Below are positions 6,934 to 17,757 of a DNA stretch of 64,000 bases, piece after piece; positions within the stretch are counted from its first letter, which is position 1; the number at the start of each line of letters is the position of its first letter. The position numbers and the translations under genes were made by a program. Location of the stretch: NCBI RefSeq assembly GCF_001314995.1, contig NZ_CP012938.1, positions 4,340,001 to 4,404,000 of the forward strand, written 5' to 3'. The notes beneath the pieces were generated by a model that saw nothing but the letters and a program-made list of their open reading frames with translations, did no database searches and was not told the DNA's origin. The stretch comes from Bacteroides ovatus (GTDB taxonomy: Bacteria; Bacteroidota; Bacteroidia; Bacteroidales; Bacteroidaceae).

Positions 6934-6967
6934 CGCCGTCAATTAAACTCTTAATTTGTATAGTGTT

Positions 6968-7528
6968 ATGAGAGCTAAAAAGTTTGTATGCTGCTTGCTG
7001 GCTATGCTGCTGTTCGCCGGTGTTTCGTTTATCTCCTGCGGTAATAGTTCCAAGGCAAAAGCCGATAGTGAACTGACTACGCAAGACGGTGAAGATTTCA
7101 AATCATTTCTGGATAAATTTACTTCCAGTGCAGCCTTCCAGTATACTCGTGTCAAGTTCCCATTAAAGACCCCGATTACTTTATTGGCAGATGACGGCGA
7201 AACCGAAAAGACGTTCCCTTTCACTAAGGAAAAATGGCCGTTGCTGGATAGCGAAACCATGAAGGAAGAACGTATCACCCAGGAAGAAGGGGGAATCTAT
7301 GTCTCCAAGTTTACGCTGAATGAACCGAAACACAAAATCTTTGAAGCGGGCTATGAAGAGTCCGAAGTGGATTTGCGTGTCGAGTTCGAATTGCAGGCTG
7401 ACGGGAAATGGTATGTGGTGGATTGCTATACAGGCTGGTATGGATATGACTTGCCGATTGGGGAGTTAAAACAGACTATTCAGAATGTGAAAGAAGAAAA
7501 TGCCGCATTCAAAGAAATACATCCGTAG
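6968..7528 (+). CDS. Small lipoprotein, DUF4348-like
   Basis: The ATG at 6968 (186 residues) is preferred to the TTG at 6956 because it gives a clean lipoprotein signal: basic MRAKK, a hydrophobic core, then SFISC-GN with the lipidated Cys. The remainder is soluble and acidic, with FKSFLDKFTSSAAFQYTRVKFPL and a conserved-looking Trp/Tyr-rich end (WYVVDCYTGWYGYD). I recall this pattern as DUF4348, a Bacteroidetes family of unknown role with an NTF2-like fold; that naming is from memory. It has its own -7 box and ends at the large hairpin at 7546-7606. Confidence 0.75.
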   Translation: MRAKKFVCCLLAMLLFAGVSFISCGNSSKAKADSELTTQDGEDFKSFLDKFTSSAAFQYTRVKFPLKTPITLLADDGETEKTFPFTKEKWPLLDSETMKEERITQEEGGIYVSKFTLNEPKHKIFEAGYEESEVDLRVEFELQADGKWYVVDCYTGWYGYDLPIGELKQTIQNVKEENAAFKEIHP

Positions 7529-7545
7529 AGATAAGTATCAATATC

Positions 7546-7606
7546 AAGTATTAAGTATCAAGTATTAGCCAGTCATTTAATACTTAATACTTGATACTTA
7601 ATACTT
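7546..7606. terminator. Large inverted repeat, probable bidirectional terminator
   Basis: A perfect 22-bp stem (7546-7567 with 7585-7606) built from AAGTATT/AAGTATC units, with a 17-nt loop, fills the gap between two convergent genes. A/T-rich arms give T-runs on both strands. It resembles dispersed AT-rich palindromes of Bacteroides genomes. Confidence 0.7.
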
Positions 7607-7610
7607 ATTA

Positions 7611-8126
7611 TTAGGGTTCTCCTACATAATATCCTAGTTCGGATTCTTTTCCGTCTACCATTTCCCTGACAATGCCGTTTTTAGTGTTGAAATCCTGATA
7701 GAGTTCTTCATAATCACGTGTATAATCTGCGTCGGGGACTACGTTAACATCAAATTTTAGTTCTGCTTTTCCATTTGGGAGCATATTGCCGAAAATCCGG
7801 ATGCGGTGAACAACTTCGCCTACATTCTTGATGCTGTTGTAGGTTGCTTTGAATTGCCTGATACCGTCTTCGGGAATGATGATATGCGAACTTTTATCCA
7901 GAATGATACAGCCACAGGAAGGTTGCATTTCTGAAATGATTAACGGAGCGTCTCCCGTGTTGGTGATGGTAAACATGATATCGAGTTGCTGACCTTGCTT
8001 GATAGGGTAATAGTGTCTGACGGAATCTTTTATCGTCATGCTGGTGGGACGTACTTCCTTTCTGCACCCTGTAAAGTAGAGCGGAAGTGCCGTCAGTAGT
8101 AAAATATAGAATATAGATTTATTCAT
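7611..8126 (-). CDS. DUF1573 lipoprotein
   Basis: This 171-residue protein (ATG 8126; 8135 also possible) has a lipoprotein signal (MNKSIFYILLL...YFTGC) and one DUF1573 domain, an Ig-like fold recognisable by FTITNTGDAPLIISEMQPSCGC followed by I-PEDG and a beta-rich end. DUF1573 proteins are common surface or periplasmic proteins of Bacteroidetes without a defined reaction. It is the last gene of the five-gene exopolysaccharide-like cluster, 38 bp after the DUF4838 gene, which suggests a structural or scaffold role there. Confidence 0.85.
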   Translation of the reverse strand: MNKSIFYILLLTALPLYFTGCRKEVRPTSMTIKDSVRHYYPIKQGQQLDIMFTITNTGDAPLIISEMQPSCGCIILDKSSHIIIPEDGIRQFKATYNSIKNVGEVVHRIRIFGNMLPNGKAELKFDVNVVPDADYTRDYEELYQDFNTKNGIVREMVDGKESELGYYVGEP

Positions 8127-8164
8127 TGTTGCCATTTATTTTTGTTATATCACTTTTTCAGCAT

Positions 8165-10318
8165 TTAAGGGATGAATGCAATTTCATCGATACCCATTTG
8201 CGTTCCCGGCTTCTTTAAACAACTGATTTTTATGCTTAATTGTTCTGTTCCGTTCAAGTCTGCCGGAACGGTGGCTTTCATCATTTCTCCTTTTTCTGGG
8301 GAGTCTTCCGGTTTTAAGTCTATTGTTTTATAGGCTACTCCGTCTTTCAACAGTTGAACTTGCTGTGGAGCATAGATGCGATGGCGGGGAAGATTCAAAA
8401 AACTGATATAGAATGTTCCTGATGCATTGAGTCCTTTAACCGGCAGGTTGATGGTACATTCTTCTCCCGGAATGATAACCCAACCGCAATGATAGTCTCC
8501 GGGTAAACCGTGAGTGCCATCGGTCAGTTTCTTTGAATCATTTTTATTTAGTTTAGGGGTTGCGGAAGGATGCATTCCCAGAAACAAACTTTTCTTTATG
8601 TCGGAAGCAAGTATATATTGTTCCCATTCCTTTATATAATAGTCAATCTCATAAGCTGACTCATTATAATATCCCATTCCGGCAAATGCTTGATGCTCTT
8701 TGAGCTGGGTGACCCATTTACGAGCTTGGGGAAGCGGTTGAATATCCTTTCCATTCCGCTTGGCATATCCGTAAGCGTCGAAACTGTGGTCACGTGCTAA
8801 TTCCATGCGCGTGAAAGACAAGGCGGTCTGGAGCTCGTGCAGCTTTTTGCGCTCTTTCCCTTTTGCTTCGGATACAAAATCTCCCATTTCATCATAGAAT
8901 TTGATAAACTTCTCCGGATAGAGGAATCCTTTTTCCGATTCTCTGATACCGGCGTAAAGTCCGAGCCGCTTTCCGGATTGGGCGTTGTTTTCTAGCTCTG
9001 TGTAGTAATCGTACAGCCATTTTTTGGATACCGGGTATTCCTGATTGAAATAGCTTTTAATTAACTCATCAACCGGAAGCTCCGGGTTGATAAGAAGGGC
9101 TGATAATACAAAAGTCCTCATTTCATCGAAGGAAGAATAGCTGTAACCGCTTCCGTTGAAAAATATGCCGCTGGCTCCGTGTTGTTTGAAAAGTTGGAGT
9201 CTTTGCTGGGCTATCTTTAATATGGGGAAAGGAGTGAGGTAGTCGTCGAAGTTGTTGATATAGTCCCATATATAGATGTTGTTCGTTACTTTCTTCCAGT
9301 TGTCGAGTTGTTCCGCAAATTTCTTGTCTTGCTCGTCCTTGCCGTCTGTCCGGCGGAGCGGGTAGTCGATAGCGCTGACAATTACCCCGACGTTAGGCGG
9401 GAGCTGCTTGTCTGTGACTTGTTGCGTAGTCAGGTAGGAAGTCGTAAAGAACGTGTGTTTGGGAAAACGCTGCGACAGGCGGAGGATCAGTTCCGTAACG
9501 GCGGGAGTTGCGTTCTTCTCTGTATTTCCCAATGCGGTGCAGGTGGCACACGTACAGGCGTACGGAGTATCATCCGGTGCGATTACAAAACGGAAATTCC
9601 CCTTTTCACCGAAGTTATCTACGATGTAACTTTCTATCTGGCGATACATATCCTCGGAAGAGAAACACAGTTGTGAGTCATCTGTCTTCCCGTGAATGGT
9701 GGCATATACTTTCTCTGCATCTTTTCCCAAGACTTTTCGCAGGTTGTGTCCCCATATTCCCCAGCTGTCATCAAAGTTGTTCAGGCCGATAACGCCTGTA
9801 TGATCGGCGTTCAGGCCGTATGGAGAATAAATACTTTGATAGTCAAATGCAAAAGCTCCGCAAGTATCGTTGAGATTGATAAGGGCGGGAGGAAGATCCG
9901 AACCGTCTATACGCGGGTCTTCTTTGCTGATCTTCTTTATCAGTTGGTATTGCAGCCATAACATTTGTTTGTCGTCACTTGCGGTCAGTCTGATATCAGA
10001 GCCTTTGCAGGCTACTTTGAATCCTCTCTGCAATGTTGGGTCTATCTGTATGATGATGCGCCACATGTCCATTTCGGAAACGCCAAAAGCTACTATTTCA
10101 TCGTCGTTTGCACGCTTCTTGAGATGTTCGTACAGGTATTTCGCCCACCGGGTGTCTCTGTCGGTCGGATCCTCACCAATGGTGACGAGATACCCTTCTT
10201 TAGATGGGAACATCTCCGTGCGTGCCTGCATACGGCAGCCGGATAAAAGGCAGCAAATACATATCATTCCTGCCAATACAGGGCCAAGCGTATCAGAATG
10301 AAATATAAACTTGTGCAT
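8165..10318 (-). CDS. DUF4838 lipoprotein, glycoside-hydrolase-like
   Basis: The 717-residue product has a lipoprotein signal ending CCLLSGC and a DUF4838-type middle region (SIYSPYGLNADHTGVIGLNNFDDSWGIWGHNL; then APDDTPYACTCATCTALG, a paired Cys motif; then IYIWDYINNFDDYLTPFP). A C-terminal beta-rich region (about 600-717) looks like a carbohydrate-binding module. DUF4838 resembles catalytic regions of alpha-glucuronidase-type hydrolases, but no activity is assigned here. The start overlaps the end of the TPR/beta-barrel gene by 26 bp, implying translational coupling. By analogy with PgaB or other export-linked hydrolases it may trim the exported polymer; that is inference. Confidence 0.8.
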   Translation of the reverse strand: MHKFIFHSDTLGPVLAGMICICCLLSGCRMQARTEMFPSKEGYLVTIGEDPTDRDTRWAKYLYEHLKKRANDDEIVAFGVSEMDMWRIIIQIDPTLQRGFKVACKGSDIRLTASDDKQMLWLQYQLIKKISKEDPRIDGSDLPPALINLNDTCGAFAFDYQSIYSPYGLNADHTGVIGLNNFDDSWGIWGHNLRKVLGKDAEKVYATIHGKTDDSQLCFSSEDMYRQIESYIVDNFGEKGNFRFVIAPDDTPYACTCATCTALGNTEKNATPAVTELILRLSQRFPKHTFFTTSYLTTQQVTDKQLPPNVGVIVSAIDYPLRRTDGKDEQDKKFAEQLDNWKKVTNNIYIWDYINNFDDYLTPFPILKIAQQRLQLFKQHGASGIFFNGSGYSYSSFDEMRTFVLSALLINPELPVDELIKSYFNQEYPVSKKWLYDYYTELENNAQSGKRLGLYAGIRESEKGFLYPEKFIKFYDEMGDFVSEAKGKERKKLHELQTALSFTRMELARDHSFDAYGYAKRNGKDIQPLPQARKWVTQLKEHQAFAGMGYYNESAYEIDYYIKEWEQYILASDIKKSLFLGMHPSATPKLNKNDSKKLTDGTHGLPGDYHCGWVIIPGEECTINLPVKGLNASGTFYISFLNLPRHRIYAPQQVQLLKDGVAYKTIDLKPEDSPEKGEMMKATVPADLNGTEQLSIKISCLKKPGTQMGIDEIAFIP

Positions 10319-13262
10319 AGATGTTATATAAGTTTTTATAGCGTGTCGATATGGATTCTATCTGGTTGGACGGACTTGTCCCTCGCACCGTATTGGTTTG
10401 GTTATAATAGGTGTTCCAAGTGCCCATCAAGCCTATGGTAATGTTGGGACTGACCATATACTGACCTCCCAATCCCACCATGGTATTGGTGTGAGAGAAA
10501 GAGCCGGGCAGCGCATAGTCCAGTACGGCCGTTTCCGGTGCCGATCCGATGCTTGCCATGGCGTTGATATTTGTCTTTGTATCGCTCGCCGGGAAGTATT
10601 TGGCGCCAATCTGCGCATTGTAATAGAAGTTAGAGTTGAAGAAGTGCATATCGATCTTCGTGTTGAGACGAACCACTTCAATGGTCTTGGCTAATTCTCC
10701 GCCTACAGTGAGTAGGTTAGTCTTTGACTCATTCCAACCCGTAAACAGATAGCCATTGTCTCCGGTGCCACCTGCAAAGAATTCATCGTTCCATTCATAA
10801 CGCTTTGTGTAGGCGGCTACCCGTCTATAACCCACATGCGCACCTATTTCCCAATCATTCTTGAGATAATGCCGTAAAGCGACATCAGCCGTTATGTCCG
10901 GGAAGTATTTGGTCGCAAAGGCTGCATTGGCCGTGAGGCTCCACTTCGGTGAGAAGTGATGCGTCCACTCACCTTGTACCTGAATGCCGACTCCTCCCGG
11001 TGTCTGCTCTTCCGCTTCCATGCTGTCGCTTGCCGAGCCACTTCGCCCTGCATAGTTGAGACGTCCTGTATAGCTGTTCTTCTGGCCTTTTCGGGTATAT
11101 TCGGCTGTTGCAACAGAGGTAATGATATCTTCTTCTCCGTAGCGTGCACGGAGATAGGTCAAAGCAATCTCATTCTTGAGCATCATGCTTCTAAGGCCCG
11201 ATAAATGTCGTTGGAAAGAGCGATATTCCATGATGGATGGCTCGTAGTACTTTTGGTAATAATAGGCTGAATCCGCTTGACGGTTGGCTTCATATACCAC
11301 TCCCTTAGTGTACTTCAATGATTTGTTCTGACTGTCATAAAGCAAAGCTGTATCAAGAACAGCGAGAGCCTTTTCCGGTTCTTTGGCCTTTGTCAGTTGC
11401 AGGGCACGGTATTCACTGCTCTGTGAGAATGCGCCTATAATCTCTTTGTTGCTCGGGTATTTGTTGAGTATCGGCTTCAGGAATTCCAAAGAAGCTTCGT
11501 ATCTCTTGTCACGTTCAAGCACGGTAGCTCTTTTAGCCTGATAGAATGGTTCTTCAGGATAATAATTGATTCCTTGTGCTGTATATTTCTCGAATTCATC
11601 GTATTTTCCGAGTAAACCGGACGAATTGATGGCATACCGTAATCCGAGATCGCTTGATGGATTCAGGCTAATTAGCTTAACAGATTCCTCGTATGCTTTC
11701 TTCGTAGCTCCGGCTTCCATACATTTCTTGATGTACGGCACTGCTAGTTCCTCGTACCCGATAACATAGAAAATGCGCATATCTTCATCACTCTGCTCGA
11801 TGGCAGATAGATACAGTTGCAAAGCCTCTTCGGTTTTATCCATTTTATCGAGAATAAATGCCCTTTTCAACGTGCCGTTTTCGTAATCAGGGAAGTGAAG
11901 AGTGATGGTGTCCAATGTTGCAAGTGCTTCATTGTAACGTTTCATATTGATATAGCAACTCAAGGCTTTTTCCCATGCGGCACCGTTCACTTCATTGTCG
12001 TCTACATGTTTTTGAGAAACGAACAATACGTGCGGCAATGCTTCTGCGTACAGACCAAGTTCCATCAGTTTTTCAGCTTTCTTCATGTGTTGTGCGCTCA
12101 TGGCAAGCGTAATATCATAATCATCAGGATACATCTCATACATCTTTTTCAGCGTTGAATAGGCAAGATCATCCTCATTCATCTGGCGATAAAGCATATA
12201 TTCTTTATAAAGAATTCCTTTATCATTGTTGCCATATTGTTTTTTAGCTTCTCTGATATAGAAGAGTGCGTCATCGGTATATCCCCGGGTGACGGAAGTG
12301 TTCAGCAGGTAGTCTAATGCTTCCTTGTTCTTATTACCTCCTTCGTAGGCCATGCCATATAATACATAAGGATCCCGCTGCTTCTCTGCTCGGGCAGCCT
12401 CCATTAACAGGTCGTTATACATACGCCGTATGGCAGGGCTGTTGTTTCTTCGCATTTGCTCGCGTATAAACACCAGAGCTTCCGGATAACGTGCCAATTC
12501 ACTAAGGATACTCGCCCTTTTGACGATAAGCGCACCGCTTCCCGGTATGGCAGCCAAACCGTTGGATGACCAGCCTAGAGCAGCTTCCCGGTTTCCTTCC
12601 TGTAAATGCAGGTTAATGATGTCCAGATAATATTCTTCGTTTTGAGGAGATACTTTGATGAGCTCCGTCAGCTTTTCGATAGCCTCTTTTCGGTTACCAC
12701 CTTTTTTCATTTGCTGGTAGCCTACCTCCATGCTGTAGATATAATCCTTCCTTAGAATCGTATCGTTCGGGTAAATCTGATTGATTCGTTTCAACAGACG
12801 ATCTGCTTCCACATCGTTGTTCTGCTTGCGGTACAGTTCAATCTTTCTTCGCCATAAACCTCTCCAATACGGATTCACTTCCAGCAACTCATTAACGTAA
12901 CAAATAGCACTGGAATAATTCTCGGTGATATCTTCTACATCTACCAGCAGATGTTTGGCATTGACGTTGTTGTAATTGTCATCTATCGCTTTGACAAGAT
13001 GATAACGCGACTGGTCATAGTTCTTTTCGTGGAACCAGTATTTTCCCATGAGCCATTCAAGGTCAGAAACATTCGGGTATTTCTGAAGGCCCTCCTCCAA
13101 CAGCTCTTTCCCTGCTTCCCATTCCTCGTTCGCAAAATGCTCCTGTACAATCTGGGCATATTGCTCCGGTGTCTGGAATCCGTTGTCGGTCCCGGAGGAA
13201 GAGGTTATCAGTAAAAACAGACAACCTAATATGGTGATCTTATGGAGAAATTCTCTGTTCAT
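10293..13262 (-). CDS. TPR protein with C-terminal outer-membrane beta-barrel (PgaA/YaiO-like)
   Basis: The 989-residue protein has a signal peptide, about 650 residues of TPR-type helical repeats (for example LIKVSPQNEEYYLDIINLHLQEG, around 190) and a C-terminal beta-barrel of about 250 residues (from about 735) with alternating aromatic strands, ending in ...YAQVYISF with the terminal Phe typical of outer-membrane proteins. This layout matches PgaA and BcsC, which guide a polymer through the periplasm and outer membrane, and the barrel resembles the YaiO family. It lies between the GT2 gene (30 bp upstream) and the DUF4838 gene (overlapping), as an export pore should. Confidence 0.85.
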   Translation of the reverse strand: MNREFLHKITILGCLFLLITSSSGTDNGFQTPEQYAQIVQEHFANEEWEAGKELLEEGLQKYPNVSDLEWLMGKYWFHEKNYDQSRYHLVKAIDDNYNNVNAKHLLVDVEDITENYSSAICYVNELLEVNPYWRGLWRRKIELYRKQNNDVEADRLLKRINQIYPNDTILRKDYIYSMEVGYQQMKKGGNRKEAIEKLTELIKVSPQNEEYYLDIINLHLQEGNREAALGWSSNGLAAIPGSGALIVKRASILSELARYPEALVFIREQMRRNNSPAIRRMYNDLLMEAARAEKQRDPYVLYGMAYEGGNKNKEALDYLLNTSVTRGYTDDALFYIREAKKQYGNNDKGILYKEYMLYRQMNEDDLAYSTLKKMYEMYPDDYDITLAMSAQHMKKAEKLMELGLYAEALPHVLFVSQKHVDDNEVNGAAWEKALSCYINMKRYNEALATLDTITLHFPDYENGTLKRAFILDKMDKTEEALQLYLSAIEQSDEDMRIFYVIGYEELAVPYIKKCMEAGATKKAYEESVKLISLNPSSDLGLRYAINSSGLLGKYDEFEKYTAQGINYYPEEPFYQAKRATVLERDKRYEASLEFLKPILNKYPSNKEIIGAFSQSSEYRALQLTKAKEPEKALAVLDTALLYDSQNKSLKYTKGVVYEANRQADSAYYYQKYYEPSIMEYRSFQRHLSGLRSMMLKNEIALTYLRARYGEEDIITSVATAEYTRKGQKNSYTGRLNYAGRSGSASDSMEAEEQTPGGVGIQVQGEWTHHFSPKWSLTANAAFATKYFPDITADVALRHYLKNDWEIGAHVGYRRVAAYTKRYEWNDEFFAGGTGDNGYLFTGWNESKTNLLTVGGELAKTIEVVRLNTKIDMHFFNSNFYYNAQIGAKYFPASDTKTNINAMASIGSAPETAVLDYALPGSFSHTNTMVGLGGQYMVSPNITIGLMGTWNTYYNQTNTVRGTSPSNQIESISTRYKNLYNIYAQVYISF

Positions 13263-13292
13263 TCTATCTTGTCTTTAATCTTTCTTTCTTGT

Positions 13293-14768
13293 TTAAATCG
13301 TAGCAGGTTCGGGCTTCATTGCCGTTATATCAGTACCGTCTGCACTTTCTTCTTTCTGCTTGAATCCCTTACGTTCCATGTTCTTCCACTTGAAGTCTCT
13401 ATTGGTCAGATAACTGAGGTATCCTCTCAATGAACAGAAAGTGATGATGGGATGATAGAAGATAGGCTCTAATATGGACGCAATGATAATCCACAGGTAT
13501 TCATATCCTCTTTTATATAGCATCCCGACATAGTAGTCGTAGGTAATAACAACGATGGAAAGGAACTGGCAGAACGTATAGATCGTCAGGTAAATCATCC
13601 ATGCCGTGTTCCAGTTGACTGCTCCTGTAAAGGCCAGATAGATAAATACTATCAAACCGACGAGCTCGATGATCGGCGCCAGAAACTCAAAAACGAACAT
13701 ATAAGGCAGAGTTAACAGTCCCATCTGTTTATACGTCTTTTTGAAAATCATCTTACGATGGATATTAAGTGTCTGGAACAATCCCCGTGCCCAACGGGTA
13801 CGTTGCCGGTAAAGCATTGCCAGGTTGGGAGGTCCTTCCGTCCAACAACAAGTATCAGGAATCTGTACGATCTTATAAGGACGGGAGAAGTCGCACATAT
13901 ATCCTACCATGCGGGTGATGAGGTCCATGTCTTCGGCAAAAGAGGGGGCATCGTATCCTCCGGCTGCAATCGCTACCGAACGGTCGAAAAGACCGAATCC
14001 ACCGGAAACATTCGGCATACCATTGATTGCGGACCATCCCATCTTACCAATCAGATAGGAACGCATGTATTCCAGATTCTGGAAAAGTGGAATCGGTGTA
14101 CGGGGAGTTCTAACGTCTATGATTTGTCCGTCTTTCACGACGCATCCGTTAGCCATCAACATCGTTCCGCTGACTGCAATTACTTGTTTTTCTGAAGATA
14201 TAATGGGCGAGATACAACGATAAAGAGCATACTTTTCCAAAATGCAATCCACATCCGTGCAGATAAAATAAGGATGAGAAGCAACGTTGATACCCGCATT
14301 GGATGCATCCGCTTTAGTTCCTCCATTTTCTTTGTCTACAACGATGAGTCGGCTGTATTTCGGGTTGGAGGATTTGAGGAGTCTTCGGAACGGTCTGGTT
14401 TTGATTCGCTCGATATAAGCATAGGGCACTTCTACCAGTTCATAATATTCGGTCATCTTTTCCAATGTACTGTCCGTACTTCCATCATTTACAATAACCA
14501 CCTCGAAAAGCGGATATTCCAATGCAAGCATGGAGTTCACATTATCAATGATTGTCTTTTCTTCATTGAAGGCAGGAGCAATTACCGAAATGCCCGGTGT
14601 ATAGGGGGATTCCTTGATTGTTTTCCGCATATAGCTTTCCACATAGTAATCCTTTCTCCGTTTTAGAGAAATGAAAGAGAGGAAGGCGAATGTGACGAAG
14701 AATATCGCCAGCATGCTCGTATAAAAGAATACGAAATAATTGAAGAATGTAAATATTATATCTCTCAT
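13293..14768 (-). CDS. Membrane GT2 processive glycosyltransferase (PgaC/BcsA-like)
   Basis: This 491-residue protein has one N-terminal membrane segment, a GT2 domain and three or more C-terminal membrane segments. All four motifs of processive synthases are present: VNDGSTD, TDVDC with Asp172 and Asp174, AEDMD with Glu279 and Asp280 as the base, and QRTRW at 322-326. Such enzymes polymerise a sugar nucleotide in the cytoplasm and extrude the chain through the inner membrane. No PilZ domain is seen. It starts 5 bp after the HEAT-repeat gene. Poly-GlcNAc, cellulose or hyaluronan-type products are all possible from the sequence. Confidence 0.9.
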   Translation of the reverse strand: MRDIIFTFFNYFVFFYTSMLAIFFVTFAFLSFISLKRRKDYYVESYMRKTIKESPYTPGISVIAPAFNEEKTIIDNVNSMLALEYPLFEVVIVNDGSTDSTLEKMTEYYELVEVPYAYIERIKTRPFRRLLKSSNPKYSRLIVVDKENGGTKADASNAGINVASHPYFICTDVDCILEKYALYRCISPIISSEKQVIAVSGTMLMANGCVVKDGQIIDVRTPRTPIPLFQNLEYMRSYLIGKMGWSAINGMPNVSGGFGLFDRSVAIAAGGYDAPSFAEDMDLITRMVGYMCDFSRPYKIVQIPDTCCWTEGPPNLAMLYRQRTRWARGLFQTLNIHRKMIFKKTYKQMGLLTLPYMFVFEFLAPIIELVGLIVFIYLAFTGAVNWNTAWMIYLTIYTFCQFLSIVVITYDYYVGMLYKRGYEYLWIIIASILEPIFYHPIITFCSLRGYLSYLTNRDFKWKNMERKGFKQKEESADGTDITAMKPEPATI

Positions 14769-14773
14769 GTTCT

Positions 14774-15946
14774 CTAGTTTAACTGGTTGATTAACGGATG
14801 CTTGGTGTGGGCAAACAATATAGCTGTGTGGGAATCTGCTTTTCTTTCCAATTGATCGAATGTTTTCCTTCCCATTGCACTATACTCATAGAGGGCTTTG
14901 AGTATGACTCTCTTGGTTCCCCAGTTATCTGCTTCATCATAAGCATTGTAAAGAAATCCTAAAGCCTTATCGGTCTTTAGATCCGCAATAGCCGAAATGA
15001 TTTGTCGTTTGACTTCTTCCGGTTGTACATTATACATTTCAATCAGCTTAGGTTCAACCTCTTTGTATTTTAGTTTACCTAAAGTCTTGATCGCTTCACC
15101 TCGTATTTCCACAGAACGGGCATTGAGTTGCTTCGCGAGAATTGGGGCACTTTCGGTTTCATTATATAGCCGGATTTCGTTGATAAAGAATATCTTAACG
15201 TTTTCTTCAGCTGAAGTATTCACCCATTTAATAAAGGTGGGTGTGTTATATCCCACTTTCTTACGGTGCTCCAAGATAGCGTGTAACTCCATCATGTCCC
15301 ATTGCCTTAACTTCATGCCGATGTCTTCGTCGAAGAAGCGGAACGGGTCACCCTGGCTTAACCACATATAAGTATAGCGTGCCGAGTTTCTTAGTTCTAG
15401 TTCACGATGATAGAGGAAACGCACCAATACCGCTTCAGAGGCATAGCCATTGATGGACTGAATAAGTTTCAGAGCTTGTATCTTTGATCTTTTGGAACCG
15501 AATTGAAGTTCGCGTTCAAGGAAACGTGTGATTTGGAATACGGTTTGAATCGTTTGATAGTTTAGTTCATTGATCTCATCTTCATGCACACTCTTGATTT
15601 CTGTTAATAGTTGAGTGATAATGCGTAACTCGTTAGGTTTCGGGCGCTTTTTCGTATCATATTCTAATCTGTCAGCTATCTCTTCTTCACTCAATGTGTT
15701 GGAATCTAGTGAGATAGATTTCATTTCTTCATAATACTTATCAAATGCTTTATTGTATTTCCGCTTCTCTTTTCGCCTTTTAAATATACCATATATAATA
15801 TGGAATAGGAGAAATAAGTACGCAATAATACAAAACATTACAGCAATTGAGCATATTCTTATGATTAAAGGATAGCCAATAAACTTGTAATATATCCAAT
15901 AGAAATAATATTCTATGTAATCTATACCATACAGTACTTGATCCAT
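14774..15946 (-). CDS. Membrane-anchored HEAT-repeat protein
   Basis: This 390-residue protein has an N-terminal membrane segment (about 28-53) followed by a basic stretch (KRRKEKRKYNK), placing the remainder in the cytoplasm. From about 110 it is helical, with HEAT-like repeats (SVEIRGEAIKTLGKLKYKEVEPKLIEMY; PEEVKRQIISAIADLKTDKALGFLYNAY). The first gene of the cluster, it probably acts as a scaffold or partner of the GT2 synthase 5 bp downstream, in place of the small PgaD-type subunit. That role is inference. Confidence 0.75.
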   Translation of the reverse strand: MDQVLYGIDYIEYYFYWIYYKFIGYPLIIRICSIAVMFCIIAYLFLLFHIIYGIFKRRKEKRKYNKAFDKYYEEMKSISLDSNTLSEEEIADRLEYDTKKRPKPNELRIITQLLTEIKSVHEDEINELNYQTIQTVFQITRFLERELQFGSKRSKIQALKLIQSINGYASEAVLVRFLYHRELELRNSARYTYMWLSQGDPFRFFDEDIGMKLRQWDMMELHAILEHRKKVGYNTPTFIKWVNTSAEENVKIFFINEIRLYNETESAPILAKQLNARSVEIRGEAIKTLGKLKYKEVEPKLIEMYNVQPEEVKRQIISAIADLKTDKALGFLYNAYDEADNWGTKRVILKALYEYSAMGRKTFDQLERKADSHTAILFAHTKHPLINQLN

Positions 15947-15973
15947 TTCCCTTGATATATTTATATATAGAAC

Positions 15974-16004
15974 TTGTATATTCGGAATAAAAGTTCTATA
16001 TTTG
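15974..16004 (+). promoter_or_regulatory. Promoter for LruC gene side
   Basis: TTG at 15974-15976, a 20-bp gap, then TATATTTG at 15997-16004: the -33/-7 pair expected in Bacteroides. It would give a leader of about 260 nt before the ATG at 16272; a second box, TATTTTTG at 16172-16179, lies closer. Confidence 0.6.
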
Positions 16005-16028
16005 TTGTATTGAATGTTCTGTCTAATG

Positions 16029-16036
16029 CAAATATA
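16029..16036 (-). promoter_or_regulatory. -7 box for the five-gene export cluster
   Basis: CAAATATA reads TATATTTG on the minus strand, with an expected start near 16024, overlapping the opposing promoter and giving a leader of about 78 nt. Confidence 0.55.
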
Positions 16037-16271
16037 CGAAATAACTTGTATATATTATCCATTGTTCATGAACAGGCTTTTTGAGCCCTATTTTAGCTCT
16101 TGTGATTATTCTCGATGGAAAGGATTGAAATTACAAATAAAGGCAAGCAAAAAGCTATTAGGCGTTAAATATATTTTTGATAAGTTAACAAATGGAGCCT
16201 GAAAATAAGTGTGATAAGCCAGGTTCTCATGCGAAACAAAAACAAACAATAAATTTAAAAATTAAATTAAG

Positions 16272-17642
16272 ATGAAAATTAAAAGTTTGATGTATGTCCT
16301 TATGGGGACAATGTTGGTTACTACTTCCTGCTCTGATAATGAGTTGGAAAAAGGTAACGATGGTTCGGGAACTGTTGACCCGGTAAATGCTTCTACACTT
16401 GTGAATGTATATTCCGATAAAAGTGGTTCTGAAGCGAGTCTGCTTGTGGGAGATGTATTAGTGAAAGATTCCCGTACTCTTACGTTGAATGTTCCTGCTG
16501 CTTGCGAGAAAGTGTATATGAAATACAATACAGTTTCGGGAACAGAGGCTACAAAAGAATTTGCTTTGTCTCCTGTTAGTCGTGGTGTAGATCAGAGTAC
16601 TGGTTTCAATTTTGAAACAAACCGTCTGGCATCGGTAACTCTTGCGCTTCCTGAAGATGCAGTGCAGCCGACAAATGAAACGGACCAAGGCTATCTTTTC
16701 TATCATAACACAGGTGTGGTGATGTTCGAAGATGGTTGGCCTATTCAACTGGATTCATGGTATGATGAAGATTTCAACGATGTTGTATTCGAGTATGACT
16801 TGAAGGTGACTGAATGTCATAGTCAACAGATGATGGAGACTGTAGGAGGTAAAGAAGAATTGTTGTTGACTTTGGATGTTCGTGCTGTAGGTGGTATATA
16901 CCCGACTGTGTTAGGTGTTGTACTGGATGGTTTGAAAAGCGAGTATGTTGATCGGATTACTGCAAGCCTTATACTAAAAGGTGGTCAGGGAACAATGACA
17001 GACTTAGCTAAAGAGGAACTTTCTACAAAAAATATAGTGAAAGTTGAAAATAAAAATTGGAATTGGAGTAATGATACTCGCAAAGAACCGCGTTTCGCAA
17101 TATTGACAGTGGATAAAGCACAAGCGGAAGGAACTGTTATTACACTGGATGGTTTAACTTCTTTGATGGATAATAATCAGGATATGTTTCAGGTAACACA
17201 AGGAAAAGTAAGAGAAGGACTACCTATGTTGCGTGCTGAAGTTAGACTGATTGGTAAAGAAGGATTAACTGGAGCTGAAAGAGATGCTCAGCTTGCAGCA
17301 TTTAGAGAGTTGATTTTAGATACTAATAGACAGAATTTCTTTATTAAGGTGAACGGTGGTAAAGAAATACACATGAGGGGTTATGCACCGACTTCTGCTT
17401 ACAAAGCAGAATATGAAGCATTGGTTGCGGGTGACACTACACTGGATGCAAATGTTTATTATTCAAATACCAAAGGTTCCACTTGGGGAGTTAAACTTCC
17501 GGTTGGCACACGTCATGCTTATGAACGTGTACCATTTAGAGAAGCATATCCTGATTTTACTAAATGGGTAGATAGTAAGGGTGTTTCAAACCAGAAATGG
17601 TATGAGAACTTTGTTGATGAAAAAACTATAAGATATTGGTAA
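16272..17642 (+). CDS. LruC domain (DUF4842) lipoprotein
   Basis: The 456-residue product has a lipoprotein signal (MKIKSLMYVLMGTMLVTTSC). The LruC motif MFEDGWPIQLDSWYDEDFND lies near 155, and a DUF4842-type C-terminal half follows (EIHMRGYAPTS, then WGVKLPVG and a Trp/Tyr-rich end). These proteins are exported, acidic and beta-rich; Asp-rich loops suggest calcium binding. It is divergent from the exopolysaccharide-like cluster and ends at a strong terminator at 17690-17717. A matrix or adhesive role next to the polymer locus is inference. Confidence 0.8.
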   Translation: MKIKSLMYVLMGTMLVTTSCSDNELEKGNDGSGTVDPVNASTLVNVYSDKSGSEASLLVGDVLVKDSRTLTLNVPAACEKVYMKYNTVSGTEATKEFALSPVSRGVDQSTGFNFETNRLASVTLALPEDAVQPTNETDQGYLFYHNTGVVMFEDGWPIQLDSWYDEDFNDVVFEYDLKVTECHSQQMMETVGGKEELLLTLDVRAVGGIYPTVLGVVLDGLKSEYVDRITASLILKGGQGTMTDLAKEELSTKNIVKVENKNWNWSNDTRKEPRFAILTVDKAQAEGTVITLDGLTSLMDNNQDMFQVTQGKVREGLPMLRAEVRLIGKEGLTGAERDAQLAAFRELILDTNRQNFFIKVNGGKEIHMRGYAPTSAYKAEYEALVAGDTTLDANVYYSNTKGSTWGVKLPVGTRHAYERVPFREAYPDFTKWVDSKGVSNQKWYENFVDEKTIRYW

Positions 17643-17689
17643 TGCAAATTATCAGTCAATACGTTATTTGAGTTATTTTGTACAATTTG

Positions 17690-17717
17690 AACCCCTCTTT
17701 TTTCGAAAAGAGGGGTT
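17690..17717 (+). terminator. Intrinsic terminator after LruC gene
   Basis: AACCCCTCTTTT (17690-17701), TTCG loop, AAAAGAGGGGTT (17706-17717), then a T-rich tail. Confidence 0.9.
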
Positions 17718-17757
17718 TCTTTGTATTCGGAAGAATAATCTTTAAACTAATACCGTA

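Follow-up and report, generated by a model that had tools for sequence, protein, structure and literature searches.

The window, that is, the whole 64,000-nucleotide stretch of Bacteroides ovatus DNA that was analyzed, has five tightly packed ORFs on the minus strand between positions 7611 and 15946. An earlier note, made from the sequence alone, had described them as a compact exopolysaccharide synthesis and export locus, and all five ORFs were found at these positions when the coordinates were checked. The five genes (the cassette) and the features around them are as follows:

14774..15946, minus strand: HEAT-repeat inner-membrane subunit, 390 aa (Pfam HEAT_2, 1e-11; hydropathy)
13293..14768, minus strand: processive-type GT2 synthase, 491 aa (Pfam Glycos_transf_2, 1.7e-21; PgaC_IcaA, 121.7 bits)
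10293..13262, minus strand: TPR protein with a YaiO-type barrel, candidate outer-membrane exporter, 989 aa (Pfam YaiO/TPR; AF2; Foldseek)
8165..10318, minus strand: DUF4838 lipoprotein with a predicted GH20/GH84-like fold, 717 aa (Pfam, 5.6e-38; AF2; Foldseek; conservation)
7611..8135, minus strand: DUF1573 lipoprotein, 174 aa (Pfam, 1.2e-14; alignments)
16272..17642, plus strand: divergently transcribed LruC/DUF4842 lipoprotein, probable sixth component (match to the solved chain 3oqq)
15947..16271, no strand: divergent intergenic region between the HEAT and LruC genes, with matches on both strands to TAnnTTTG, which we take to be the promoter consensus
7529..17757, no strand: presence/absence unit, absent in relatives, between the gene at 6956-7528 and the DUF6250/PL8 genes

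The genes are closely packed in the relatives as well, where the median intergenic gaps are -4, 3, -26 and 1 bp (79, 78, 71 and 66 gene pairs, respectively), i.e., neighboring genes overlap or abut.

The HEAT protein has a single hydrophobic segment by hydropathy (residues 33-51, positions 15794-15850), which together with the HEAT_2 match agrees with its earlier description as a membrane HEAT protein. Because the stretch KRRKEKRKY comes after this segment, the positive-inside rule for membrane topology would place the HEAT domain in the cytosol. The GT2 protein carries the complete D, DxD (14247-14255), ED (13929-13934) and QRTRW (13791-13805) motifs, as the earlier note had reported, and residues D95, D172, D174, E279, D280, Q322, R323, R325 and W326 are identical in all 78 aligned sequences, of which the window GT2 is one. 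By hydropathy, this protein has one or two hydrophobic segments at its N terminus and three or four at its C terminus. A membrane GT2 with D, DxD, ED and QxxRW motifs and several transmembrane helices is what is expected of synthase-dependent secretion, and we predict that the enzyme is processive. The GT2 is only 25.5% identical to PgaC over 368 aa; its best match in a PDB profile search is a chondroitin synthase, and its profile overlaps with solved synthases only in the initial portion of the GT domain. The family also has an insert at about residues 104-140 (14349-14459).

The 989-aa protein begins with a signal-like stretch and matches TPR_14 (1.1e-20) and the YaiO barrel PF19413 (1.5e-10; 41.7 bits, above the gathering score of 23.9), which places it in the YaiO family. 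The AF2 model (pLDDT 87.1, pTM 0.53) has a TPR superhelix at residues 32-694 (11181-13169) and a C-terminal barrel with 14 predicted strands at residues 697-988 (10299-11174), so the TPR and barrel parts of the earlier description stand. Its secretin-like part does not; a secretin identity was rejected because the Pfam domains are YaiO and TPR. In a Foldseek search with the whole model, TPR proteins dominate, BcsC (9b8a) appears at rank 45 and the barrel is matched only together with TPRs; all of the 60 matches listed in the PDB profile search appear to be repeat proteins. A custom barrel model built from six other members matched no more than 16 of the 79 cassette exporters. An outer-membrane barrel with a periplasmic TPR scaffold is thus our prediction from sequence and model alone.

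The DUF4838 protein has a lipobox cysteine (Cys28) and a well-modeled fold (pLDDT 91.8, pTM 0.90) that resembles GH20, GH84, GH115 and GH138 enzymes in Foldseek, with modest TM-scores (0.20-0.43) among the 50 matches listed. PDB profile searching with this protein gave one weak match to a beta-hexosaminidase (6q63, 1.5e-4), which spans 83 residues and misses the catalytic part, as well as three others at chance level. The candidate catalytic pair D249-D250 (9569-9574) lies close to a cysteine cluster, C255/C257/C260 (9539-9556), and D250 is kept in all of the aligned DUF4838 proteins: 60 of 60 from cassettes, 9 of 9 of flavobacterial type and 10 of 10 stand-alone, a class that also has one gene in the window genome. 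The DUF4838 domain, a glycosidase-type fold and a conserved Asp are together what GH163 membership calls for, and they suit the earlier label of a hydrolase-like lipoprotein, with hydrolysis itself presumed; the equation of DUF4838 with GH163 follows the authors' label in PMC9870897. Two positions near the predicted active site set the cassette proteins apart. N388 is present in 56 of 60 cassette proteins, and the 19 others all have Q; D358 is present in all 60, where the nine flavobacterial-type proteins have T or S and most of the ten stand-alone ones have T, R or A. Since the model resembles GH20/GH84 enzymes, the fold hints that an N-acetylhexosamine polymer may be trimmed in the periplasm; this hint is weak, because GH115 and GH138, also top fold classes, are to our knowledge not hexosaminidases.

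The DUF1573 protein is a lipoprotein, as had been noted, with lipobox Cys24 and a Cys74-Gly-Cys76 motif, and all three cysteines are nearly invariant in the alignments. Across the loci, only 55 of 68 DUF1573 proteins and 41 of 61 DUF4838 proteins passed the lipobox test. Residues 23-456 of the LruC/DUF4842 protein match PDB chain 3oqq. Of the 80 best named loci, 22 have a match to an LruC model next to the cassette; the model was trained on the window and 15 of these 22 loci, and seven are new finds. The same model found no LruC at the cassette-less sites of five relatives described below. Because it flanks the cassette in these 22 loci and is gone from the cassette-less sites, LruC/DUF4842 is probably a sixth part of the cassette.

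All five genes occur in the same order in 68 of the 80 best named GT2 relatives, taken from at least 449 confirmed candidates, so that the near clade was sampled; two of the named loci (L102 and L103) are from the same MAG. Nine of the remaining 12 loci are broken by a contig end and three lack only DUF4838. A search for the gene order across Bacteroidota had been suggested in the earlier note, with its absence to count against the idea, and the order is conserved. Among 574 genes outside the cassettes in the same loci, there were no matches to the HEAT or barrel models and one match to a short response regulator. The recurrence of the five-gene order therefore exceeds chance. In a tree of 187 sequences, the 74 DUF1573-bearing synthases lie within one clade of 85 tips (support 1.0), and the other 11 tips are nine contig-cut loci plus L086 and L087, where tblastn found DUF1573. 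When pairwise identities are compared across 53 loci, those of the five proteins are correlated with one another (0.81-0.93); this comparison was made without an unrelated core gene as a control. An apparent GT2-exporter fusion in L079 was ruled out; the GT2 there ends at its own stop.

The cassette also behaves as a presence/absence unit among relatives. The GT2 has a match at 1e-20 in 12 of 61 relatives. Sites were inspected for eight of the other 11 GT2-positive relatives, with three weak matches (G003, G025 and G038) left out: the set of five genes is complete in five loci (L015-L019), HEAT and GT2 follow a YaiO gene in L020, L021 and L022 (from the same genome) lie at contig ends, and in L023 the GT2 sits among other genes. 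Five relatives picked from 28 DUF2851-bearing ones for having no GT2 match all lack the cassette at the equivalent site, and in three of them the flanks adjoin (the 6956-7528 gene plus PL8 or DUF6250-PL8). A B. finegoldii "plasmid" record that carries the cassette looks chromosomal, since dapB and signal peptidase genes flank the cassette in the window order. GC content was not informative as a sign of foreign origin.

The window cassette belongs, as one branch, to a wider HEAT-GT2 family. We counted 104 phylum sites from 106 match rows; G442 was left out, and G261, which has an interrupted frame, fell below the threshold. The HEAT, barrel and response-regulator models were partly built from loci of this set, and the counts made with them are mildly circular. 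HEAT is immediately upstream of GT2 in 97 of the 104 sites, a YaiO barrel is nearby in 74 on either strand and in 50 on the same strand, a short response regulator is at most six genes away in 80, and DUF1573 is present in only four. The family also occurs on plasmid pMESCI01 of Mesorhizobium ciceri. The window genome has no match to GGDEF in a profile search in which the controls matched, and none to PilZ in one in which controls matched in 5 of 14, so the absence of PilZ noted earlier for the locus extends to the whole genome. One tentative possibility, which we put forward with reserve, is an undescribed class of synthases free of c-di-GMP in which a cytosolic HEAT subunit would be the control point; a stand-alone response regulator would dock there in most relatives, and the window branch, a more elaborate one, would instead use the periplasmic and surface lipoproteins DUF4838, DUF1573 and LruC. 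Such a class would cover Bacteroidota and at least one Mesorhizobium plasmid.

Taken together, the cassette is probably a c-di-GMP-independent, synthase-dependent exopolysaccharide secretion system. This fits the function originally proposed for it, with a multi-membrane synthase, a TPR-barrel and a glycosidase-fold lipoprotein in one operon; secretion itself we infer. We envisage that the GT2 would polymerize a sugar, most likely an N-acetylhexosamine, at the cytosolic face, and that the membrane helices of the GT2 itself would form the path for the polymer. Next to the GT2 would sit the HEAT subunit, with its cytosolic repeat domain serving as an assembly partner, a regulatory partner or both. 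In the periplasm, the DUF4838 lipoprotein may trim or cut the polymer, as the hydrolase half does in PgaB, and DUF1573 would likely be a scaffold. The TPR superhelix would lead the polymer to the YaiO-type barrel as its exit, and LruC, where present, would probably bind or tether it at the surface. Gene content and order, motifs, predicted folds, co-inheritance and the missing PilZ and GGDEF matches are the computed results on which this picture of processivity, export, sugar, hydrolysis, scaffold and tether is built.

The cassette could instead be a Bacteroidota form of PgaABCD that makes poly-beta-1,6-GlcNAc, with deacetylation lost or located elsewhere. Among NCBIfam models, PgaC_IcaA matches the GT2 best, and the TPR-barrel and glycosidase-fold proteins occupy the places of PgaA and PgaB. 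However, the GT2 score of 121.7 bits is far from the equivalog cut-off of 422.3, the GT2 insert is absent from PgaC, DUF4838 has no BLAST or profile match to PgaB, and a scan of the five genes plus five neighbors showed neither PgaD nor a deacetylase, the lack of the latter having been remarked on before. We regard this explanation as improbable. Somewhat more improbable is that the product of the GT2 is not a free exopolysaccharide but a glycan linked to a lipid or anchored to the cell, for instance a lipoglycan or a chain of teichoic-acid type. In the wider family, 11 of the 104 sites have a GT2 fused to PF00884, the sulfatase domain known from LTA synthases, and in 35 this domain is at most six genes away, and one Emticicia neighbor is annotated as LTA synthase family. 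Against this, PF00884 is within six genes on the same strand in none of the 84 long-exporter tree entries, and a conserved TPR-barrel protein suits a polymer that leaves the cell.

Expression data are available for what may be a related cassette. In PMC9870897, two Polaribacter dokdonensis genes are induced with an alga versus the glucose control, MED152_03905 (GT2) 8.8-fold and MED152_03915 (DUF4838, labeled GH163 by the authors) 18.5-fold. Their spacing of two tags fits the gene order of Polaribacter loci L136, L138 and L141 (the GT2 ORF is split in L141), and so the pair fits the cassette as far as tags and annotations tell. The authors of that paper count the induced genes as substrate-use CAZymes, which, with the PL8 lyase next door and stand-alone DUF4838 genes elsewhere, would favor a catabolic locus that degrades host or algal glycans with an incidental GT2; this is very unlikely, as the five genes have no SusC/SusD-type domain, DUF4838 goes together with the exporter and the GT2 in 68 of 80 named loci, and PL8 stays in three of the five cassette-less sites. 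If the secretion system is as we propose, the interpretation of DUF4838/GH163 induction data, e.g., from Polaribacter-alga co-culture, could shift from glycan consumption to matrix production.

Searches of open-licence PMC text gave no description of the cassette in the papers listed or in passages of PMC8280789, PMC12419801, PMC9870897 and PMC10154615. The cassette is defined and one accessory structure is solved (3oqq), which would open matrix formation in Bacteroidota to simple gene deletions. Known synthase-dependent systems are often interpreted through c-di-GMP; the window genome has no GGDEF or PilZ match.

Several known systems share parts with the cassette. Its DUF4838 proteins resemble GH163 endo-beta-N-acetylglucosaminidases in the DUF4838 domain, conserved Asp and Cys cluster; unlike the other DUF4838 proteins aligned, they have D358 and mostly N388, and endo-beta-N-acetylglucosaminidase would be their candidate activity. 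The E. coli yaiO-yaiP-yaiS genes also place a YaiO protein close to a GT2, but they lack HEAT, DUF4838 and DUF1573 genes, and YaiP aligns with the cassette GT2 over 63 residues only. The response regulator-HEAT-GT2-YaiO loci of other Bacteroidota and pMESCI01 have HEAT directly before GT2 and YaiO nearby; they differ in the length of the exporter, which is shorter there (about 400-440 aa in the loci scanned). Like Bcs, the cassette pairs an inner-membrane synthase with a TPR-barrel exporter; unlike Bcs, it has no PilZ at the synthase or in its vicinity, and the remaining Bcs parts (BcsB and GH8) are lacking. PgaABCD of E. coli is a further parallel, its operon likewise encoding a membrane GT2, a TPR-barrel protein and a periplasmic lipoprotein with a glycosidase fold. 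In contrast to PgaABCD, the cassette has HEAT for PgaD and DUF4838 for the deacetylase-hydrolase PgaB, adds DUF1573 and LruC, has a GT2 far under the PgaC equivalog cut-off and has a barrel of 14 predicted strands rather than the 16 of PgaA. The cassette is therefore Pga-like but not a Pga member, and the functional parallel to PgaABCD or Bcs drawn at the outset is supported, with HEAT, DUF4838 and DUF1573 setting the cassette apart.

The cassette is real, its gene order is conserved, and it has been patchily gained and lost. The window lies in a genome of 6,472,489 bases that forms a single contig, and the five minus-strand open reading frames described in the earlier note are all present at the place given there (listed below together with the neighbouring LruC gene), with each domain backed by Pfam; their locus tags are presumably BACOVA_00962-00966.

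7611-8135, minus strand: DUF1573 gene
8165-10318, minus strand: DUF4838 gene
10293-13262, minus strand: TPR-barrel gene, candidate exporter
13293-14768, minus strand: GT2 synthase gene
14774-15946, minus strand: HEAT gene
16272-17642, plus strand: LruC/DUF4842 lipoprotein gene, probable sixth part

A search of 61 relatives with the window GT2 gave matches in 12 genomes (E<=1e-20). Among the sites fetched from it, six loci including the window have all five genes in order, and the remaining sites have a different gene content or are cut. The window's neighbour genes recur at L015 only and are absent at the other four loci (L016-L019). A scan of named genomes provided 80 loci with flanks, the best 80 of 449 confirmed candidates, including loci from Bacteroides, Alistipes, Prevotella, Paraprevotella, Muribaculaceae, Dysgonomonas, Flavobacterium, Polaribacter and Pedobacter. 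The conservation check proposed in the earlier note was run on these 80, and the five-gene order is kept in 68; contig ends cut nine, and DUF4838 alone is missing in three (L122, L131 and L132). The cassette genes abut or overlap one another in the named loci. A FastTree phylogeny of 187 GT2 sequences, with PgaC as the root, puts all 74 DUF1573-associated synthases into a single 85-tip clade (support 1.0); its 11 remaining tips are the nine loci cut by contig ends together with L086 and L087, both of which give a tblastn match to DUF1573. When the five cassette proteins are compared only with each other, their pairwise identities correlate at 0.81-0.93 over 53 loci.

Two records deserve comment. 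L217 (NZ_OY725906.1), named as a B. finegoldii plasmid, has dapB and two signal peptidase genes adjoining the cassette in the window order, and it is probably a chromosomal piece. L117, from a metagenome-assembled genome labelled Limnohabitans (Pseudomonadota), has a cassette whose GT2 shares 87% identity with the Flavobacterium covae one; this genome is likely a mixed bin.

Five relatives with no GT2 match were chosen for a look at their DUF2851 sites. In each, dapB, DUF2851 and the 6956-7528 gene are retained; none has a cassette-gene match (1e-5) or an LruC match (1e-3), and PL8 or DUF6250-PL8 is the next gene in three. Because the cassette genes and LruC are jointly missing from these sites, the presence/absence unit spans about 7529-17757, LruC included. 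Some cassettes from nominally the same genus have a GT2 only 46-48% identical to the window's, versus 55% in a genome of another family, Dysgonomonas judging by its contig, which suggests either horizontal transfer or old paralogy. In one relative (G012:C12:865319-866665), the DUF2851 gene that adjoins the cassette in the window is matched as two pieces and is possibly frameshifted.

Residues 23-456 of the LruC-domain protein align with PDB chain 3oqq (982 bits), and we take the two to be the same protein, which would make the window's source strain B. ovatus ATCC 8483. LruC model matches adjoin the cassette in 22 of the best 80 of 449 loci, usually as the gene just upstream of HEAT and in its orientation, and sometimes after DUF1573; 15 of the 22 supplied the model's seeds and seven are new. 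Pfam DUF4842 confirms all four members tested. Two further families of apparent lipoproteins, with no Pfam match in the one member tested of each, occupy like positions in 10 and 7 of these 80 loci, so that 39 have one of the three families. Among 104 GT2 sites sampled across the phylum, LruC is matched in the window only.

In that phylum set, HEAT is immediately upstream of GT2 at 97 of 104 sites. Within six genes there is a short response regulator at 80 (in 61 of them as the gene just before HEAT), either a YaiO barrel or a long exporter at 74 (50 on the same strand) and a PF00884 sulfatase domain at 35 (fused to GT2 in 11); DUF4838 occurs at 14 and DUF1573 at four. A cruder earlier pass gave 95 for HEAT, 84 for the regulator, 48 for same-strand exporters, 37 for the sulfatase, 13 for DUF4838 and 4 for DUF1573. 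In L050, L054, L058, L145 and L148, a single reading frame joins GT2 to an LTA synthase-like PF00884 domain, as judged by Pfam for L050 and by purpose-built models for the others, a hint that the polymer may be decorated. Outside Bacteroidota, Mesorhizobium ciceri plasmid pMESCI01 (L219) has in a row an ATP-binding protein, two response regulators, YaiO, HEAT and a GT2 37.6% identical to the window's, followed by an opposite-strand Hpt gene.

No short response regulator is near the window cassette, and only five of the best 80 of 449 loci have one. The earlier note had seen no PilZ domain, and this holds for the whole genome, where neither PilZ nor GGDEF is matched by searches positive in 5 and 8 of 14 control genomes, respectively. 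Outside the window branch, most of the relatives sampled have a response regulator close to HEAT, and the HEAT subunit would thus be the natural candidate for the control point of the synthase. The HEAT protein has a single hydrophobic segment (33-51) with a highly basic stretch after it, so that its repeats are predicted to be cytosolic. The exporter model has helices to residue 694 and 14 strands over 697-988 (pLDDT 87.1, pTM 0.53); a purpose-built barrel model matches only 16 of 79 cassette exporters, and so these barrels are divergent.

The structure of DUF4838 is modelled with confidence (pLDDT 91.8, pTM 0.90). It has 134 Foldseek matches at E<=0.001, the best being BT0459 (a beta-hexosaminidase) and GH115, GH138, GH84 and GH20C enzymes. 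In GH20 and GH84 the catalytic pair is at barrel strand 4, which we take to be strand 243-245 of the model; D249-D250 come after it and, by placement without residue-level superposition, are a candidate pair. Position 388 is N in 56 of 60 cassette proteins, whereas it is Q in all 19 flavobacterial-type and stand-alone proteins; with D358 in 60 of 60, this pattern makes the cassette proteins a distinct subfamily. The window's genome has a second, stand-alone DUF4838 gene (L043, G000:C1:695665-696930) with Q at this position.

In one paper, the DUF4838 protein MED152_03915 of Polaribacter dokdonensis is labelled GH163, and it and MED152_03905 (GT2) are treated as CAZymes outside PULs, with 18.5-fold and 8.8-fold increases, respectively, with Micromonas versus the glucose control (PMC9870897). 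The two-tag gap, judged from tags and annotations, fits a cassette in which the exporter gene separates the two. According to a review (PMC10154615), the GlcNAc-beta-1,2-Man linkage of complex N-glycans is cleaved by a GH163 of B. thetaiotaomicron. This specificity and the PgaC-like GT2 weakly favour a beta-linked N-acetylhexosamine polymer.

Over 368 residues the GT2 shares 25.5% identity with PgaC. Between its first Asp and the KADxxNAG stretch it carries an insert that is missing from PgaC and is common to the Mesorhizobium and flavobacterial-type relatives. The cassette is most likely a synthase-dependent exopolysaccharide system, Pga-like in its working, although two tested features place it outside PgaABCD. 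We rate it as a variation on synthase-dependent exopolysaccharide secretion, a kind of system already known.
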